Shown: in pieces, positions 21,360 to 29,424 of the stretch
Numbering within the stretch: the stretch's first letter is position 1
Layout: every line of letters begins with the position of its first letter
DNA from: Murinocardiopsis flavida
GTDB taxonomy: Bacteria; Actinomycetota; Actinomycetes; Streptosporangiales; Streptosporangiaceae
NCBI RefSeq assembly: GCF_003014485.1
Contig: NZ_PYGA01000011.1
Location: forward strand, 62,001 to 126,000
DNA: 64,000 nucleotides
Reading direction: 5' to 3'
Program-made: the position numbers and the translations under genes
The notes under the pieces: generated by a model
What the model saw: only the letters and a program-made list of their open reading frames with translations
Told to the model about the DNA's origin: nothing
Databases searched by the model: none

Positions 21360-21550
21360 CAGGGCCTTCCAAGAGGTGGGTTCGGCCGCGCGGCCCCGGC
21401 GCCCGCCGGGGGCAGGGAGCGGGCCGCGCCGGCGGGCGTTGCGGGAGTCGGCACCGGCCGCACGCGCGGGGTGCCGGAGGCGGCGGACGGCGCGGGGCCG
21501 CCGCAGAGGGCCGGGGCCGGGGTGGCGCCGTGCCGGGGACGGCCGCTCAT
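21359..21550 (-). other. 63-codon Ala/Pro-rich frame bridging ATPase and permease
   Basis: This frame starts at an ATG overlapping the ATPase stop (ATGA) and its TGA overlaps the permease ATG (TGATG). The product is Pro/Ala/Gly-rich with no motif. Either it is a coupled small protein, or it is the original N-terminus of the permease separated from it by a frameshift near 21370-21395. Confidence 0.35.
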
Positions 21551-22518
21551 CCGTCCCCCTCGCGCAGGCTGCGGCCGGTGAGGGAGAGGAAGACGTCGTC
21601 GAGCGTCGGCCGCTGCACCCGGACCGTGCGCAGGTCGACTCCTGCGGCATCCAGCGAGCGGAGGAGCTCGGGCAGCACCGCGTCGCCGCGCTCGACCCGC
21701 AGGCGCACCTCCGGGTCGCCGCTGACCGGCACCTCGACCGACACCGAGTTCGCCGAGGGGACGCGCTCGGCGACCTCGGCGCCGGTGCGGGCCTGCGCCT
21801 CGTCCGCCGCGGCGAAGGTGATCAGGTCGCCCGAAACCTTGCCCTTCAGCTCGTCACCGGTGCCGTCGGCGATGACCCGGCCGTGGTCGATCACGAGGAT
21901 CCGCTCGGCGACCCCGTCGGCCTCGTCCAGGTAGTGCGTCGTCAGCACGATCGTGGTGCCCGACTCGGCGCGCAGCCGTTCGATGTGCTCCCACAGGTTC
22001 GCGCGGCTGTGCGGGTCGAGGCCGGTCGAGGGCTCGTCCAGGAACAGCAGCTCAGGGCGGTGGATCAGGCCCATCGCGATGTCGAGGCGGCGGCGCTGGC
22101 CGCCCGAGAGCTTGGTGACGATCCGGTCGGCGGCGGCGTCGAGCTCCAGCATCTCCAGCAGCTCGCCGGTGCGGCTGCGCGCATCCGCCTTGCCGAGCCC
22201 GTAGCAGAGGCCCTGCGTGTACAGCTCGTCGCGGGCGCGCTGGTCCTCCCCGGCGCCGTGGCCCTGGCCGACGAAGCCGATCCTGCGGCGCACCTCGTTG
22301 GGCGCCGTGGCGATGTCGTGCCCCGCCACGGCGGCGGAGCCCGATGTCGGCGCGAGCAGGGTGGTGAGCATCCGCAGGGTCGTCGATTTGCCCGCGCCGT
22401 TGGGGCCGAGGAGGGCGACGAGTTCGCCCTTTCCCACGTCGATGTCGACGCCGCGCACCGCCTCGACGGTCGCCTTCTTCACGCGGAAGTGCCGCGTGAG
22501 CCCTCTCGTGTGGATCAT
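21547..22518 (-). CDS. ABC exporter ATP-binding protein (DrrA-like)
   Basis: A 323-residue ATPase that pairs with the permease at 20604. Walker A is GPNGAGKST (about 37-45), the signature LSGGQRRRLDIA near 137, Walker B LLFLDEPSTGLDP, and the switch histidine TTHYLDEAD. The DrrA-type C-terminal domain ends with VQRPTLDDVFLSLTGRSL. By family it exports a drug or lipid-like compound, giving self-resistance or drug resistance. Start ATG 22518 lies just downstream of a palindromic site (22532-22545) that is nearly identical to one in front of the PadR gene, so I infer PadR repression. Confidence 0.92.
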   Translation of the reverse strand: MIHTRGLTRHFRVKKATVEAVRGVDIDVGKGELVALLGPNGAGKSTTLRMLTTLLAPTSGSAAVAGHDIATAPNEVRRRIGFVGQGHGAGEDQRARDELYTQGLCYGLGKADARSRTGELLEMLELDAAADRIVTKLSGGQRRRLDIAMGLIHRPELLFLDEPSTGLDPHSRANLWEHIERLRAESGTTIVLTTHYLDEADGVAERILVIDHGRVIADGTGDELKGKVSGDLITFAAADEAQARTGAEVAERVPSANSVSVEVPVSGDPEVRLRVERGDAVLPELLRSLDAAGVDLRTVRVQRPTLDDVFLSLTGRSLREGDG

Positions 22519-22797: not shown

Positions 22798-23388
22798 TCA
22801 GGCGGTCCGCTCGGGGAGGCCGAACGCGCCGGGGCCGTCGTCGGCCATGACATAGCGCCCGGATTCGAGCGCGGCGATGAGGGAGCGCGTCCATGCGGCC
22901 CCCGCCTCGACCGTGCCCAGCCACAGACCGAACAGCTCCCGCACATGCTCGGGCTTGCCCCACTCCTCGGTCTGGCCGGTGTGACCGGTCAGCTCGGCGC
23001 GGGTCTGCTCCAGCGCTGCCAGCCGCTCCTTCAGCAGCCCGACCACCTCGGCGCGCGGCAGGGAGCACATCAGGGTGACACCCGCGCACAGCAGCCCGTG
23101 GTCGTCGCCCGCGTGGCGCAGCGCACCACGCAGCAGCGCGTGCAGTTCGGCGTCGCCCGCTGCGGTCAGCTCATAGGAGGTGCGGTCGACCACCTCGTCG
23201 CCCTCGACGACGAGCGTCCGCAGCCTGCCCTCCTTGGTGAGCTGGCGCAGCGCGTGATAGATGGAGCCCCACTTGACGTTGGCCCACTGCTCGGTCCCCC
23301 AGGACAGGAGTTCGCGGCCGATCCGGTAGCCGTGCGTGCGCCCCTGCATCCGCACCACGCCCAGAACCAGCAGTCGCGTCGCCGACAT
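22798..23388 (-). CDS. PadR family transcriptional regulator
   Basis: A 196-residue PadR protein of the type with a C-terminal dimerisation helix domain. The N-terminal winged helix covers residues 1-90: MSATRLLVLGVVRMQGRTHG, WGSIYHALRQLTKEG, then VDRTSYELTAAGDAEL. I choose ATG 23388 over GTG 23400 because MSATRLLVL is the family start. It lies upstream of the DrrAB-like genes on the same strand. A perfect 14-bp palindrome overlaps its own promoter and matches sites at the exporter promoter, so it probably represses both itself and the exporter until a drug or ligand binds. Confidence 0.9.
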   Translation of the reverse strand: MSATRLLVLGVVRMQGRTHGYRIGRELLSWGTEQWANVKWGSIYHALRQLTKEGRLRTLVVEGDEVVDRTSYELTAAGDAELHALLRGALRHAGDDHGLLCAGVTLMCSLPRAEVVGLLKERLAALEQTRAELTGHTGQTEEWGKPEHVRELFGLWLGTVEAGAAWTRSLIAALESGRYVMADDGPGAFGLPERTA

Positions 23389-23398
23389 CGCCGCTCCC

Positions 23399-23412
23399 AC
23401 TCAAGTTTGAGT
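23399..23412. promoter_or_regulatory. PadR-type operator 3 (autoregulation)
   Basis: ACTCAAGTTTGAGT is a perfect palindrome, 11 bases upstream of the PadR ATG. It differs from the classical ATGT-N8-ACAT PadR box. Confidence 0.7.
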
Positions 23413-23673
23413 CCATGCCAGGGGACCAGATTATTCGACGCTCCCGCTCCCCGCGTCCTTGCCCGCGCCAGTGCCAGTGCCAGTGAGGGCGTCAGTGCCC
23501 GCGTCGTGGCCCGCGGCTCCTACCAATGGCCCGATCGACCCCCTACCTGGGGCCGTTCGCCACCCCACCCTCCCCTACGAAAGTGGGGGAACGCCGGTAC
23601 CGAACGCGTGATGCGCCGATGACCTGCACCTTTCTAGGTTTGTTGGTACAACGACGCGAAGGAGCCAGGACAC

Positions 23674-24651
23674 ATGATCAACCTTCGGGGCCTGACCAAG
23701 CGCTACGGGGACAAGGTCGCGGTCGACGCGCTCACCCTCGACATCGCACCCGGGTCCGTCACCGGCTTCCTCGGGCCCAACGGCGCCGGGAAGTCCACCA
23801 CAATGCGGATGATCCTGGGGCTGGACCGGCCCACTGCCGGGCAGGCGCTCATCAAGGGCCGCCCCTACGCCGAACTGAAGCACCCCATGCGCGAGATCGG
23901 CGCCCTGCTGGACGCCAAGGCCGTGCATCCCGGCCACACCGCACGTACTCACCTCACGGCGATGGCGCGCAGCAACGGGATCCCCGTGTCCCGGGTGGAC
24001 GAGGTGATCGAGACCGTCGGCCTCACCGAGGTCGCCGGAAAACGCGCGGGCACGTTCTCGCTGGGGATGGGCCAGCGGCTCGGCATCGCAGGGGCCCTGC
24101 TGGGCGACCCCGAGATCGTCATGTTCGACGAACCCGTCAACGGCCTCGACCCCGACGGCGTCCGATGGGTCCGCGACCTGATGCGCGCCCTCTCCGCCGA
24201 AGGGCGGACCGTGTTCGTCTCCAGCCACCTGATGAGCGAGATGCAGCACACCGCCGACCAGCTCGTGGTGATCGGACGCGGCAAGGTCATCGCCGACGCG
24301 CCGATCGCCGAGGTCATCGCCACCAGCTCCGTCAACGCGGTCAAGGTCCGCACGCCGCGCGCCCACGAGCTCGCCCAGCAGCTCGCCGTGACCGGCGCCC
24401 GGATCGACCGCACCGCCGAGAACGAACTCATCGTCACCGGCTCGACCATCGAGCGGGTCGGCGAGATCGCGCACCAGATCGGCGCCCTCCTGCTGGAACT
24501 GAGCCCGCGCTCCGCCTCCCTTGAGCAGGCGTACATGGAACTGACGGCCGCCAGCGTCGAATACGGCGCCCCGGCACCCCCGGGCGCCGCCGACCGGGCC
24601 GACTGGTCCGACCACAACGGGGCCGACCAGCGCCAGAAAGAGCAGGTGTGA
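23674..24651 (+). CDS. ABC transporter ATP-binding protein
   Basis: A 325-residue ATPase of the bacitracin/lantibiotic-type family. Walker A GPNGAGKST (37-45), Walker B IVMFDEPVNGLDPDG, and the signature FSLGMGQRLGIA, in which LGMGQ replaces LSGGQ as usual in this subgroup. GAAGGAG upstream marks ATG 23674. The C-terminal 110 residues are a variable domain ending in a Glu/Lys-rich tail. It is coupled to the permease that follows (overlapping GTGA), and the pair is followed by a two-component system on the opposite strand, a common arrangement for antimicrobial-peptide resistance. Confidence 0.9.
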   Translation: MINLRGLTKRYGDKVAVDALTLDIAPGSVTGFLGPNGAGKSTTMRMILGLDRPTAGQALIKGRPYAELKHPMREIGALLDAKAVHPGHTARTHLTAMARSNGIPVSRVDEVIETVGLTEVAGKRAGTFSLGMGQRLGIAGALLGDPEIVMFDEPVNGLDPDGVRWVRDLMRALSAEGRTVFVSSHLMSEMQHTADQLVVIGRGKVIADAPIAEVIATSSVNAVKVRTPRAHELAQQLAVTGARIDRTAENELIVTGSTIERVGEIAHQIGALLLELSPRSASLEQAYMELTAASVEYGAPAPPGAADRADWSDHNGADQRQKEQV

Positions 24652-25448
24652 CCACCATGGCAGCAACGACCGCGCCCACCACCGCCCGTACCCGGCCGGT
24701 CCCCGCCCAGGGCGGCGGGTTCGGCGGCGCCCTCGCCGCCGAGTGGATCAAACTGCGGGGGCTCCGATCCACCTGGACCTGCATCGGCCTGACCCTCGCC
24801 ATGGCGGCCGGGATCGCGCTGCTCGGCACCTACACCATGGTGCAGAACGGCATGACCGGGATGGACGCGAACGCGCTGACACCGACGGTGATCATGATCC
24901 CGCAGTTCGCCCTCATCACCCTCGCCGCGCTGCTGATCACCGGCGAGTACGCGACCGGCTCGATTCGCACCACGCTCACGACCGTGCCGCGCCGCGGGTC
25001 GGCCCTCGCGGCGAAGGGCGTCATCCTCTCCCTCGTCGCACTCACGACCGGCGCGCTCGTCGGCCTGCTGAGCGCCCTGATCACCATCGGTGTGGCCGGG
25101 TCTGACGGGATCACCACCGCGGGCCTGACGCACGGGATCGGGGGGACGGCGGCCTACTCCGTCGCCGTCTCGCTGTTCGTCCTGGGGCTGGGGGCCGCGC
25201 TGCGCAGCACCGCGGGGACGGTCGCGACCACCATCGCCGTGGTCATGGGGATCCCGATGATCGCCACGCTCGTCGGCAACGAGGTCCTGAACACCGTCAG
25301 CGAATACTCCCCCACGAGCGCAGGCATGGTGCTGATCGGCGGCGGCGCCGATCCCTACGGCTGGCCCGTGGCGCTCATGGTCCTGGTCGCGTGGGCCTGC
25401 GCGGCGGTCGCGGCGGGGTACGCGCTGCTGCGCGGCCGCGACGCCTGA
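24648..25448 (+). CDS. ABC transporter permease
   Basis: A 266-residue protein with about six membrane segments, beginning at GTG 24648 inside the ATPase stop (an ATG at 24657 is an alternative). GGALAAEWIKLRGLRSTWT and LLITGEYATGSIRTTLTTVP (shortened to 20 residues here) are typical of ABC-2 permeases paired with LGMGQ-type ATPases. The substrate is not visible. A very strong hairpin follows the gene. Confidence 0.88.
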   Translation: MTTMAATTAPTTARTRPVPAQGGGFGGALAAEWIKLRGLRSTWTCIGLTLAMAAGIALLGTYTMVQNGMTGMDANALTPTVIMIPQFALITLAALLITGEYATGSIRTTLTTVPRRGSALAAKGVILSLVALTTGALVGLLSALITIGVAGSDGITTAGLTHGIGGTAAYSVAVSLFVLGLGAALRSTAGTVATTIAVVMGIPMIATLVGNEVLNTVSEYSPTSAGMVLIGGGADPYGWPVALMVLVAWACAAVAAGYALLRGRDA

Positions 25449-25467
25449 CATCCCATAGCCCTGGCAT

Positions 25468-25517
25468 CCCATAGCGGAGCCGGGGACGGGTGCGCCCGTC
25501 CCCGGCTCCGCTATGGG
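25468..25517. terminator. Perfect 23-bp hairpin between convergent genes
   Basis: Arms at 25468-25490 and 25495-25517 are perfectly complementary over 23 bases around a TGCG loop (left arm starts CCCATAGCGGAG). It lies between the permease gene and the response regulator gene and can serve both. A partial extra copy of the arm start, CCCATAG, is found at 25453. Confidence 0.9.
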
Positions 25518-25711
25518 GGCGGGCCGCTCCGCGGGAAGGGCGGCCATACCGTCCGTTCCGGCCATGCCGACCGGCGCCGCCCTACCGTCCGCGCCGCGGT
25601 CGCCCACCCGTGCGCCTGCCTGCTGCGGGCGCCCGTACGCCTACCCGCTCCGCGCCCGTGCACCAGCCTCCTGCGCAAGCCCGTGCGCCTGCCCGCTGCG
25701 CCCGGCCGGAC

Positions 25712-26377
25712 TCACCCCGCCTCGCGGCCGCGCACCAATCCCGCCTCGTAGGCCACGATCGCCGCCTGGACCCTGTTCTTCACGTCCAGGCGGTTCAGGA
25801 TGGCACTCACGTAGCTCTTCACCGTGCCCTCCACGACGTAGAGGCGGTTCGCGATCTCGGCGTTCGACAGGCCCTCACCGAGCAGCGCGAGCACCTCCTG
25901 CTCGCGCGCCGTCAGCGCCTCGACCTGGCGGCGCGCCTGCGTGCCGCGCGTCATCAGCCCGCCGCTCAGCTCGCTGATGACGCGGTGCGCGACCCGCGGG
26001 GAGAGGTAGGCCGCGCCGTCCGCCGCCGCGCGCACACCGGCCAGCAGCTCCTTGGGGTCGCCCGCCTTGAGCAGGAAACCCGACGCGCCCTCGCCCAAGG
26101 CGGTGGCGATGTACTCGTCCTCGCCGAACGTGGTCAGGATGAGCACTGCGGTGTCGGGGACGGAACGGCGCAGTTCCGCGGTCGCGGCGAGCCCGTCGAG
26201 CCGCGGCATGCGGATGTCCAGCAGGACGACGTCCGGCCGGTGCCTCGCGGCGAGCTGCACCGCCTCGCGCCCGTCCGCGGCCTCGGCCACCACGTCGATC
26301 TCCGGGTCCGATCCGAGGATGGCCCGGACACCGGCCCGGATCATCGCCTCGTCGTCTGCAATCAGGACACTGATCAC
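25712..26377 (-). CDS. NarL/LuxR-type response regulator
   Basis: A 221-residue regulator. Residues 1-120 form the receiver domain with DDE (8-10), the phosphoacceptor D54 in VLLDIRMP and K104 region FLLKAGDP. The C-terminal LuxR helix-turn-helix starts LTAREQEVLALLGEGLSN and includes EGTVKSYVSAIL. Start GTG 26377 follows GAGGAC. The histidine kinase at 26734 is the natural partner on the same strand, but 356 bases, a hairpin and a set of 14-bp repeats separate them, so this gene likely has its own promoter. Confidence 0.92.
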   Translation of the reverse strand: MISVLIADDEAMIRAGVRAILGSDPEIDVVAEAADGREAVQLAARHRPDVVLLDIRMPRLDGLAATAELRRSVPDTAVLILTTFGEDEYIATALGEGASGFLLKAGDPKELLAGVRAAADGAAYLSPRVAHRVISELSGGLMTRGTQARRQVEALTAREQEVLALLGEGLSNAEIANRLYVVEGTVKSYVSAILNRLDVKNRVQAAIVAYEAGLVRGREAG

Positions 26378-26391
26378 TCGGTTCCGTCCTC

Positions 26392-26475
26392 AGGTCGTGT
26401 CTCGCGGGTCACGTCTATTGGGTCACGTCTCTTGGGTGATGTCTTTTGGGTGGTGTCTCGCGGGTCGTGCGCGGA
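26392..26475. repeat. Six tandem 14-bp iterons upstream of the response regulator
   Basis: Consecutive 14-mers from 26392: AGGTCGTGTCTCGC, GGGTCACGTCTATT, GGGTCACGTCTCTT, GGGTGATGTCTTTT, GGGTGGTGTCTCGC, and a partial sixth beginning GGGTCGTG. They begin 15 bases upstream of the GTG at 26377. Spacing is regular, with change concentrated in positions 5-7 and 12-14. Confidence 0.75.
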
Positions 26476-26497
26476 TCCGCGCCCCCGCACGGCCCCG

Positions 26498-26519
26498 CCG
26501 CGCCGCCCGGGCGGCGCGG
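26498..26519 (-). terminator. Compact hairpin downstream of histidine kinase
   Basis: CCGCGCCGCCC followed directly by GGGCGGCGCGG gives an 11-bp perfect inverted repeat without spacer; the tip must open to form a loop. It lies beyond the kinase stop codon and before the iterons. Confidence 0.4.
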
Positions 26520-26733
26520 ATCGGACACCGGCCGGGCCCGAACGCCCGACCAGGAGCACCCTCCCAGACCAGCGCCAGTCCGGGGCGCACCCAGGTGGCA
26601 CTTCGTCACGCCCGCTGCGCGGCCTTGCCGCAGGGCGAGCTGCCGGTGGACGCCGAAAGCAGCACCAGACGCGGCGGGTGGGCCGGTCTGCGCGCTCCGT
26701 CCCGATGTCCGATGCATCCCTGGACCGCGCCGG

Positions 26734-28491
26734 TCACCGGGTGCCGGTGGGGCGGCCGCGCGGGCTGGGTTCGACGGTGCTCTCGGTCTCCGCGGTTGCC
26801 TCCGACGCCGGGTCCTCCCTCGCCGAGCGCGGGTCGTACGCGTCCTTCGCCCGCAGCCGGCCGTCCTCGAAGCACAACCGGTACACCTCGTAGGGAGGTT
26901 CGTCGTTGGTGAACAGCACGCCGTTGGACCGGTAGTACGAGCAGCGCGCCCCCTCGGGCCGCTGCGGTTCCCGCACGGTGAACCGGGCGTCGTACTCGGT
27001 CTCGGGGAGCACCTCGACCACCCGCTCCTCCGGTTCGCCGACGCGCAGCGCCGCGAAGTCCTCCGGCGGCAGGGTCGACTCGGCGTCCTGGAAGATCGCG
27101 AGGCCGAGGGCCGTGGCGACGCCGACGATGCCGACCACCACCGGCAGGGCGATCATCGCGATCAGCCCCTTGCGCATCCGCTGCTGGGCGATCCGCAGGT
27201 CGCGGTAGGTGTCGTCCTCGGGTCCCGGCTCGGGGTCGGCGGCTGCCAGGGTCTGGTCGGGCAGCGGGAACAGGGCTGCGACCTCGAACCCCCCGTCGCC
27301 GGTCGGCCCCGAGTGCAGTGTCCCGCCGGCCAGCCGGACGCGTTCGGCGAGGCCGATGAGCCCGCGGCCGCCCCCGGGGCCGAACGGGAGCGGGCCGGCG
27401 GGCGGCGCGGCGTTGCGCACCGCCACCCGCACCCCTTGGTCCCCGCCGCGCACCCGCACCTGGACGGCTGCGCCGGGAGCGTGCTTGGTGGCGTTGGTCA
27501 GCCCCTCCTGGACCACCCTGTACGCGGCGCGGTCGGCCATCGGCCCGAGGTCGACCTCGTCGCCCTCGCGGGCGAGCCGCACGTCGACCCCTGACGCGTG
27601 GGCGCGCTCCACCATCGCGGCGATGCCCTCGTCAGCGGGCTCCCGGGGGACGGGGTCGGACTCGTCGCGCAGCACCCCGATGATCTCGCGCAGCCGGTCG
27701 GTCGCCGTGACCGCGCCGGCGCGCAGTTCGCCCGCAGACTCGCGGTGGCGCTCGTCGAGGTCCTTGGCGAGCTCCAGCGCCCCCGCGCGCAGCGCGATGA
27801 GGCTGAGCTCGTGCCCGAGGGAGTCGTGCATGTCCTGCGCGATCCGGGCGCGTTCGCGCAGCCGCGCGTCGTCGGCGTGCATCCGGCCCTCGCGCTCCGC
27901 CTGCTTCGCCCGCTGCCACCCGGCGAACATCAGCTCCTGGCGCTGGCGCCGGTAGTTGCCCATCAGCCATGGCAGCACCACCCCGCACAGCACCAGGGCG
28001 ACGGCCGACGGGACGGAGTCCAGCGGCTCCGCCTCGAACGCCAGCGTGACCGCACCGGCCAGCAGCGCCAGCAGGAACCACACGACGGAGGTCCAGGTGC
28101 GCACGGTGCGCCGGCCCGCCAGGTAGCACATCACCAGCACGGCCATCAGGAACGTCGGCAACACGAGGGTGCACAGGAAGGACGCCGCGGCCGACACCTG
28201 CGGGCGGGAGCGGTTGACGGCGACGATCGCGGCGAGGACGCCGAGCCAGGCGCCGACGTAGCCGACGGCGGCCGACCACCGGATCTCGGGGACCGCCGCG
28301 TCGAACCCGACATCGCCGATTCCGGTCACGATCAGGTTCGGCAGGACCGTCACCGCAAGCACGGCGAACAGCAGCAGGTCGAGCAGGACCGTGCGCCGGG
28401 TGCGGTGCACGTCGAGCGGCCGGAGCAACTCGCGTACCGGCCCCCACTGGGGGGATCCGTCCGCACCGCCCCCCGCCGGTGTGGTCGTCAT
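26734..28491 (-). CDS. Sensor histidine kinase with extra C-terminal membrane and extracytoplasmic domain
   Basis: A 585-residue kinase of the HisKA_3/NarX class. The N-terminal half has about five membrane segments (37-180). The phosphoacceptor H222 lies in RIAQDMHDSLGHELS, and the ATPase domain has EGLTNATKHAP and GGGRGLIGLAERV (373-385). Where such kinases normally end (about 415), this one continues: an acidic linker, a membrane segment (about 443-466), then roughly 115 residues outside, with LRVGEPEERVVEVLPETEY resembling an SmpA/OmlA start and two cysteines (C517, C540). The start ATG 28491 lacks a clear ribosome site. It presumably phosphorylates the regulator at 25712; the second sensor domain is unusual. 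Confidence 0.88.
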   Translation of the reverse strand: MTTTPAGGGADGSPQWGPVRELLRPLDVHRTRRTVLLDLLLFAVLAVTVLPNLIVTGIGDVGFDAAVPEIRWSAAVGYVGAWLGVLAAIVAVNRSRPQVSAAASFLCTLVLPTFLMAVLVMCYLAGRRTVRTWTSVVWFLLALLAGAVTLAFEAEPLDSVPSAVALVLCGVVLPWLMGNYRRQRQELMFAGWQRAKQAEREGRMHADDARLRERARIAQDMHDSLGHELSLIALRAGALELAKDLDERHRESAGELRAGAVTATDRLREIIGVLRDESDPVPREPADEGIAAMVERAHASGVDVRLAREGDEVDLGPMADRAAYRVVQEGLTNATKHAPGAAVQVRVRGGDQGVRVAVRNAAPPAGPLPFGPGGGRGLIGLAERVRLAGGTLHSGPTGDGGFEVAALFPLPDQTLAAADPEPGPEDDTYRDLRIAQQRMRKGLIAMIALPVVVGIVGVATALGLAIFQDAESTLPPEDFAALRVGEPEERVVEVLPETEYDARFTVREPQRPEGARCSYYRSNGVLFTNDEPPYEVYRLCFEDGRLRAKDAYDPRSAREDPASEATAETESTVEPSPRGRPTGTR

Positions 28492-28573
28492 GGGGACGAC
28501 GCTACATCGGAGTCGGACGGCGGCGGCACCGACGAAGGTCGACACCGGGGGGCGACCTTCGTCGCCCCCGGCC

Positions 28574-29260
28574 TCAGCCGACCGGGTAGTCGCGTGTCTC
28601 CAGGTAGGCCACCCTGCCGCCGATGTCGACGGTGCCGCCCGGGCCTGGCACGGCGTCGATGCGCGAGCCGACGCCCTGGCGGATGACGAGGGGGCGGCCG
28701 AGCTGCGCGCACAGGCGCATGGCGGCGGATCCGGTGGCTTCGTCCTCGACGACGCCGAGGTCGTGCGCGAACAACCGGACGCGGACCCGCCCCGCGGCCT
28801 CGTCCTCCCAGGCCCAGGCGTGCAGGCCGGCCGCACCGCCGTCGTCGGCGGTCAGCGCGTCGACGTCCGCGGGCGCGTCGAACTGGCGGGTGGCGAACTC
28901 GGGGGCCCAGTCGGGGTCGGCGCGGAACCAGGTGCGGCCGGCCTCGGACCAGGTGGTGACCTCGCCCGCAGGCGGGCGCAGCGTGGACACGCGGTGCCCT
29001 TCGCGGTCGAGCAGCCAGGCGGTGCCGACGAGCGGGTGCCCCGCCAGCGGCAGCTCGTTCGCGGGGGTGTGGATGGTCAGCTCCGCGGTCGCGGGGTCGG
29101 CGACGAAGACGGTCTCGGAGAAACCGAGGTCGGCGGCGATCCGCTGGCGCTGCTCGGCGGGCGGCCGCCCGGCGTAGAGGAAGACGCCGAGCGGGTTGCC
29201 GCCCTGGTCGTCGTCGCCGAGGAAGACCGTCACAACGTGGAGGGTGGTTCGCGCAGGCAT
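28574..29260 (-). CDS. PhzF family protein
   Basis: A 228-residue protein of the PhzF/diaminopimelate epimerase-like fold. GNPLGVFLYAG, then LGFSETVFV, ELPLAGHPLVGTAWLL and DEATGSAAMRLCAQLGRP (each a family motif) are present. It is somewhat shorter than the usual 260-280 residues, with the middle part reduced. PhzF itself isomerises a phenazine precursor; most homologues have unknown substrates and no phenazine genes are seen here. Start ATG 29260. Confidence 0.85.
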   Translation of the reverse strand: MPARTTLHVVTVFLGDDDQGGNPLGVFLYAGRPPAEQRQRIAADLGFSETVFVADPATAELTIHTPANELPLAGHPLVGTAWLLDREGHRVSTLRPPAGEVTTWSEAGRTWFRADPDWAPEFATRQFDAPADVDALTADDGGAAGLHAWAWEDEAAGRVRVRLFAHDLGVVEDEATGSAAMRLCAQLGRPLVIRQGVGSRIDAVPGPGGTVDIGGRVAYLETRDYPVG

Positions 29261-29424
29261 GCGGCTCACTATGCCAGTCGCGGCCGCGCTGCGCGGTGCG
29301 GGCACCCCGCGGGAGGCGCTGGGCCCGGCGGGGGTGTGCCGGTGGGTCGGCGGCTTGGTCGGTACTGGTGAGGCGGTCGGTGGAGTGGTCGGTGCCGGGC
29401 GGCCGGTGAATCGGTCGGCGGTGT

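Follow-up and report, generated by a model that had tools for sequence, protein, structure and literature searches.

The sensor kinase AbsA1 of Streptomyces coelicolor has five membrane segments, and its C-terminal domain is extracellular (PMC3881020, PMC9739842), a topology for which eGFP fusions are named as the basis (PMC3881020). The protein is reported both to phosphorylate and to dephosphorylate AbsA2, and the signal to which it responds has been termed hitherto unidentified (PMC3881020). The absA1/A2 genes are placed in the CDA cluster, and hmaS, cdaPSI and a putative resistance gene (SCO3224) are named there in the available part of PMC6457490. A second sensor kinase of Streptomyces, CutS, also has two conserved extracellular cysteines, and changing both to serine locks CutRS on; its sensor domain, however, lies between its two transmembrane helices (available part of PMC12802291). 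The S. coelicolor kinase AbrB2, which has been termed partly similar to AbsA1/A2, works with a NarL-type partner but has three membrane segments with the extracellular input between them, and the accessible portion of its description mentions no C-terminal domain (PMC7581861).

We compared these systems with a histidine kinase of Murinocardiopsis flavida that is encoded in a 64,000-nucleotide stretch of DNA, hereafter called the window. The gene reads from 28491 to 26734 on the minus strand and encodes 585 aa. An earlier note on this DNA had placed here a histidine kinase with a membrane segment and an exported two-cysteine extension, a description with which the open reading frame, the Pfam matches and the hydropathy agree. 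The gene and its parts are as follows:

26734..28491, minus strand: sensor histidine kinase, AbsA1-type (open reading frame, Pfam, 42% identity over 477 aa to an absA-position kinase)
27958..28383, minus strand: N-terminal membrane region, residues 37-178, five hydrophobic segments with short loops (hydropathy scan)
27661..27855, minus strand: HisKA_3, residues 213-277 (Pfam PF07730, E 2.3e-14, above cut-off)
27259..27531, minus strand: HATPase_c, residues 321-411 (Pfam PF02518, E 7.7e-5, slightly below cut-off)
27172..27258, minus strand: linker, residues 412-440, acidic and then a basic juxtamembrane stretch (sequence)
27109..27165, minus strand: C-terminal membrane helix, residues 443-461, running from inside to outside (hydropathy 2.53)
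26821..27093, minus strand: exported C-terminal domain, residues 467-557, with a predicted BamE/BLIP-like fold (AF2 model, Foldseek, VIA)
26941..26943, minus strand: Cys517, invariant (alignments of tails)
26872..26874, minus strand: Cys540, invariant (alignments of tails)

The five N-terminal hydrophobic segments identified by the hydropathy scan (residues 37-55, 74-92, 106-124, 130-148 and 160-178) are joined by loops of no more than 18 residues, so the C-terminal domain is the sole sizeable outside domain of the protein and not, as first described, a second one. The phospho-acceptor of HisKA_3 is His222, in the motif DMHDSLGH, and the fold of the ATP-binding domain matches the ATP-binding domains of VraS and DesK (Z 14). 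The model helix at the C-terminal membrane segment spans residues 427-469. Beyond residue 461 the chain continues for 124 residues, in which the conserved domain occupies positions 467-557 and the last stretch (558-585) has pLDDT values below 50; C517 and C540 are the only cysteines past the helix. The first and last helices are preceded by basic residues, which also come after the fifth, and acidic residues come after the last, a pattern that fits a core inside and a tail outside. The proposed outside location is further favored by the positive-inside distribution of charges in 77/77 distinct tails (net charge higher before the helix than after it, with means of +4.9 and -0.6), by the homology to an AbsA1-type kinase and by the AbsA1 topology given in two reviews. 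GC3 was 0.96 in the ectodomain and 0.95 in the kinase core (0.93-1.0 along the whole gene), indicating that the tail is coding; this value and the presence of homologous tails in other genomes ruled out the tail as a chance or frame artefact.

The tail defines a family with few but strict sequence landmarks. Across 22 aligned tail rows, a G, an L-P pair, a C, a Y and a second C were invariant. In a larger set of 77 distinct tails, collected from fetched loci (85 ORFs, with three cut or split rows left out), the membrane helix was present in all 77 and so were exactly two outside cysteines, although these counts are biased upwards because the loci were the best matches of a profile that includes the cysteines. 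The linker between the ATPase domain and the helix was 22 aa at its shortest and 122 aa at its longest (median 37, n=71). Arginine pairs that relatives have ahead of the helix had made the Tat pathway a candidate for inserting the tail, but this was rejected, as the window protein has no RR just there; kinases of this kind are also not named as Tat substrates in the available part of PMC10924467.

Within the M. flavida genome, the tail is a rarity: HisKA_3 had 40 matches, and only two of these kinases, one in the window and one on contig 15, carry the tail. The earlier note's remark that most kinases of this class stop after the ATPase domain therefore holds for this genome. Searches of other genomes gave counts that are lower bounds, with the best first-look candidates being scored. 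The tail alone as query had matches in 14/60 genomes (own genome and relatives, own genome included). The 22-row profile A1 matched in 55/394 genomes of the class and 4/296 genomes of the phylum, both including the own genome, and tail matches occurred in 177/295 genomes of genus g56, which we take to be Streptomyces; the class and g56 counts take in a stand-alone form of the domain and a handful of weak matches (G424 and G764 among them), and those of g56 also a second kinase group. Named carriers include Amycolatopsis regifaucium and Nocardiopsis prasina, and plasmid-borne carriers annotated as 'histidine kinase' occur in Streptomyces europaeiscabiei and Streptomyces sp. NBC_01276. The architecture that had been singled out as unusual is already known from AbsA1, though rarely noted, and is in large measure a common one that recurs in several actinobacterial families.

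The genes next to the kinase also recur with it. The elements of the window that concern us are:

25712..26377, minus strand: NarL/LuxR-type response regulator, the likely partner (Pfam Response_reg and GerE)
23674..24651, plus strand: ABC transporter ATPase, a frequent neighbor (NCBIfam galliderm_ABC and drrA, both below cut-off)
24648..25448, plus strand: ABC-type permease that pairs with the ATPase, a frequent neighbor in tail loci (open reading frame)
26399..26466, no strand assigned: direct repeats of ~14 bases (GGGTCACGTCTATT) between kinase and regulator, in a gap of 356 bases (Tandem Repeats Finder)

In 20 of 21 tail loci, a NarL regulator lay no more than 1 kb from the kinase, and the exception was near a contig end. 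When scored against the window's regulator, the regulators reached 222-348 bits in those other tail loci in which the partner was the one scored, as against 101-192 bits for the regulators beside 19/20 control kinases. An ABC ATPase-permease pair was present within 5 kb in 11 of the 20 tail loci examined besides the window and in one of 20 control loci, a comparison that serves as a guide rather than a test, with tail loci drawn from many genomes and controls from the own genome alone. In all 12 loci having the pair, the window included, it was on the strand opposite to the kinase; in L136, it adjoins another kinase. For the repeats in the intergenic gap, Tandem Repeats Finder reported positions 26406-26451 with a period of 14, 3.3 copies and a score of 64, and the repeats at 26399-26466 are possible regulatory or binding sites or part of a regulator promoter. 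The wider segment of the window (22801-29323) comprises PadR-like, ABC ATPase, permease, regulator, tail kinase and PhzF-like genes, the PadR-like and PhzF-like profile matches both being below cut-off. The gene order looks alike in L133, from another genus of the family, where PadR and PhzF were judged from their first residues. A second ABC ATPase of the window (21550-22518, minus strand) scored above the NCBIfam cut-off for DrrA, the daunorubicin resistance type.

To relate the window kinase to AbsA1, we recognized absA loci by gene order and compared AbsA1 itself by its published description. The L128 locus holds an NRPS gene, a 4HPPD-family gene (hmaS-like), an FMN alpha-hydroxyacid dehydrogenase and a PLP aminotransferase (by profile or homology). 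It also has a NarL regulator, a kinase with the tail and a divergent ABC pair, and a prephenate dehydrogenase follows further on. The L127 locus has the same kinase, regulator and ABC pair as L128, a 4HPPD gene identified by profile and an ORF that begins much like the L128 NRPS. BLASTP aligned the window kinase with the absA-position kinase of L128 at 42% identity over 477 aa (E 7e-87), and because the alignment spans the tail, the window tail is homologous to the tails of absA-position kinases. By hydropathy scan, the absA-position kinases L106 and L108 (of loci L127 and L128) have four N-terminal segments and one C-terminal segment, which is the published AbsA1 topology (PMC3881020, PMC9739842). 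The same scan found three plus one in L083 (locus L126), a kinase near the AbsA1 branch. The positions that we presume for AbsA1 alleles (H202, L253, I360 and R365) fit L083 and L106 when counted from the ATG, and we treat this as a lead only.

A tree of kinase cores placed all 69 tail kinases and one tail-less paralogue (L059) on a single branch (100/98). It was built from these 69 and from 23 others of the own genome, so that 25 of its 40 kinases were included; a row was left out if it had no standard H-box or if its core match fell below 20 bits. Bootstrap values had not yet stabilized, and within the tail clade many inner forks lack resolution. The window kinase (L026) fell outside a 100/99 branch formed by L083, L106, L108 and L037. 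Sequence comparison thus places it in the AbsA1-type tail clade but off the AbsA1 branch. The likeness to AbsA1 (SCO3225) extends to the HisKA_3/HATPase core, the N-terminal membrane bundle, the C-terminal helix with an extracellular domain and the adjoining NarL-type regulator. Further, AbsA1 neighbors the putative resistance gene SCO3224, which we assume to encode an ABC ATPase, and the window kinase has an ABC pair nearby. The two kinases differ in their branch of the clade and in the number of N-terminal hydrophobic segments (five in the window kinase, four in AbsA1), and the window locus is unlike absA in the 356-base gap with repeats ahead of the regulator and, as far as noticed, in having no antibiotic cluster beside the kinase.

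The tail clade includes a kinase that has no outside domain. L059 (L184 5898-7631, minus strand; contig 1 of the own genome) ends at the C-terminal membrane segment. In none of 200 bootstrap trees did it separate from all tail kinases, which makes loss of the tail the simpler reading. From its sequence, L059 appears to be a natural truncation and indicates that the gene for a tail-clade kinase can persist lacking the outside domain. Its membrane segment, stop included, is repeated imperfectly directly downstream.

The converse form, an outside domain that stands alone behind one N-terminal membrane helix, was present in L166 (2902-3279, plus strand), L167 (2442-2837, minus strand), L171 (2547-2900, minus strand) and L173 (2448-2798, minus strand). 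In the 5-6 kb retrieved around each of these four, no frame showed a kinase core, and L166, L167 and L171 had no Pfam and no NCBIfam match. In addition, a second kinase group (L180-L183) carries a diverged form of the tail at its C-terminal parts, and many of the searched g56 genomes contain similar high-scoring matches in frames of ~570-640 aa. An alignment of twelve rows from the three kinds (AbsA1-type, second kinase group and stand-alone) has V-G, L-P, C, R.CF and L..K in common.

In successive sets of best matches, the tail was on a kinase in 57/59 ORFs, then in 85/88 and in 76/77 distinct tails. The rule that these numbers suggest, that the tail is always on a kinase, was rejected as partly an artefact of fetching best matches. 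Among 20 further stretches, which include the paralogue L059 and one weak match without a kinase, 18 had the tail and nine of these had no kinase core in any frame: the four stand-alone forms and five AbsA-like tails. One AbsA-like tail is cut by a contig end (L172) and another is a piece without the first cysteine (L169). The other three (L168, L175 and L178) have perhaps had their kinase parts lost or diverged, and L175 and L178 are near response-regulator matches. The kinase core is present in L170, L174, L176 and L177 but interrupted or spread over two frames, and L176 is without the cysteine-bearing end. L044 is also split over two frames.

The nature of the outside domain was approached by sequence and by structure. 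Neither Pfam nor NCBIfam yielded a credible family for the tail in the window protein or in the 22 family members scanned, and in these same proteins the SmpA/OmlA profile (BamE, PF04355) was absent among matches at E up to 1. A PDB sequence search with the tail gave no meaningful match. Membership of SmpA/OmlA or BLIP by sequence was rejected for want of any such match, by profile or in the PDB. The AF2 model of the tail, built from three sequences (pLDDT 73.5, pTM 0.68), has a helix-helix-three-strand arrangement, and rows 1-27 of the Foldseek search with it were all BamE or BLIP-family chains (best E 2.1e-3, none below 0.001). VIA aligned the tail with BLIP (Z 6.6, 77 residues aligned, rmsd 4.5), with BamE (5d0o_E; Z 6.2, 77 aligned, rmsd 3.7) and with OsmE (Z 5.2, 60 aligned, rmsd 2.5), values to be read with the tool's warning that a Z below 8 can reflect a common arrangement. 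Rows 1-25 were all BamE, BLIP-family or OsmE, and the first with other titles were 9uu1 (5.1), 9vnj (4.7) and 4h0a (4.0). The SmpA/OmlA-like opening that the earlier note had read in the sequence thus finds support at the level of the predicted fold, with moderate confidence, but from no sequence profile.

We conclude, also with moderate confidence, that the tail is predicted to adopt a BamE (SmpA/OmlA)/BLIP-like fold. It would share with these proteins the succession of two helices and three strands, and it differs from them in having no profile match, an anchoring membrane helix at the end of a kinase and a cysteine pair of its own. BLIP, an inhibitor of beta-lactamase, consists of two tandem units, whereas the modeled tail is one unit only. 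BamE is an outer-membrane lipoprotein, unlike the tail, which sits behind the membrane helix that ends a kinase. Both BamE and BLIP are protein-binding modules. The full-length model puts C517 and C540 on neighboring strands (516-521 and 536-542), where an antiparallel pairing of the two strands would bring the cysteines face to face. Our search of the open-licence literature found no description of the AbsA1 tail as BamE/BLIP-like or of its cysteines.

We consider it fairly likely that the window kinase is an AbsA1-type sensor whose C-terminal outside domain is the main input and tunes the balance of kinase and phosphatase activities towards the adjacent NarL-type regulator. The explanation is built on the observed architecture, homology, conservation and linkage, and we infer the disulfide, the sensing role, the route of coupling and the regulon. 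The N-terminal membrane bundle would anchor the protein, and the HisKA_3/HATPase core inside would probably phosphorylate and dephosphorylate the adjacent regulator, by analogy to AbsA1. The chain would then recross the membrane and end outside in the small BamE/BLIP-like domain, which a C517-C540 disulfide most likely holds together. If this domain bound an external ligand or partner, or if its disulfide were lost, the C-terminal helix could change its position or its dimer contacts, and the altered helix would in turn shift the kinase/phosphatase balance. The regulator probably controls the neighboring ABC exporter, among other genes.

Several observations shape this proposal. Since the outside loops of the N-terminal part are all short, the C-terminal domain is the best candidate for the input, and it can act only from behind the core, its membrane helix coming after the ATP-binding domain. 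A linker that varies from 22 to 122 aa speaks against a rigid lever or mechanical coupling; changed pairing of the helices or freedom of the ATP-binding domain fits this variation more easily. The dual activity of AbsA1 towards AbsA2 (PMC3881020) suggests that the input may set the balance between the two reactions. Sensing of a cell-envelope signal through the C-terminal domain, an early suggestion for this protein, is plausible. Against the AbsA1-type explanation stand the absence of an ABC pair within 5 kb in 9/20 tail loci, the position of the pair by another kinase in L136, the persistence of L059 without the outside domain, and the three plus one segments of L083.

What the domain would sense can be framed in more than one way. 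It could report the state of its disulfide (redox or secretion stress) as CutS may do, with an unformed C517-C540 bond switching the output, a reading that we regard as rather unlikely. The presence of exactly two cysteines in 77/77 distinct tails, the retention of the pair in the second kinase group and in the stand-alone form, and the placement of C517 and C540 in neighboring model strands, in register if antiparallel, are all as expected of such a switch, and the double cysteine-to-serine change that locks CutRS on offers a precedent (available part of PMC12802291). Yet conserved cysteine pairs of exported domains are often structural, and the VG, LP, CF and L..K positions are conserved to the same or nearly the same degree as the cysteines, pointing to a fold or a binding surface. 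The tail could also be a docking or dimer part, rather than a ligand sensor, for an envelope partner such as the ABC exporter, whose traffic would then be sensed. Bce-type systems, in which exporter traffic is sensed, provide the comparison. The ABC pair within 5 kb in 11/20 tail loci but 1/20 controls, the protein-binding nature of the nearest folds, BamE and BLIP, and the existence of a membrane-anchored stand-alone form of the domain speak for docking. The nine tail loci of 20 without a nearby pair speak against it, as does the opposite strand of the pair in the 12 loci that have one, and we give it, too, a low probability.

A third possibility takes sensing away from the tail altogether and makes it a passive membrane tether of the ATP-binding domain, with the N-terminal bundle as the sensor. 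L059, which keeps the C-terminal membrane segment but has no domain after it, and the variable length of the linker would both be compatible with a tether. A tether, however, needs no invariant folded domain on the outside, and we judge this reading very improbable.

With the architecture itself described for AbsA1, what is added here is the predicted fold of the tail, its invariant pair of cysteines, its occurrence as a stand-alone protein and the link to an exporter. As a broader and more tentative proposal, doubtful as a whole but worth stating, the C-terminal domain of AbsA1-type kinases may represent an unnamed family of BamE/BLIP-fold sensors, widespread in actinobacteria, that would read the envelope (through a disulfide or a partner) and control the kinase from behind its ATP-binding domain; the detached form may compete with it or assist it. 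If true, this reading would give a testable answer to the question of the input sensed by AbsA1, whose repression of antibiotic production has long been studied. In the window kinase and its relatives, the outside module proves to be conserved, with a fold that can be named (as predicted), an invariant cysteine pair, a presence in many actinobacterial genomes and, often, a position beside an exporter. With such a module in hand, the question of what AbsA1 senses becomes concretely testable.
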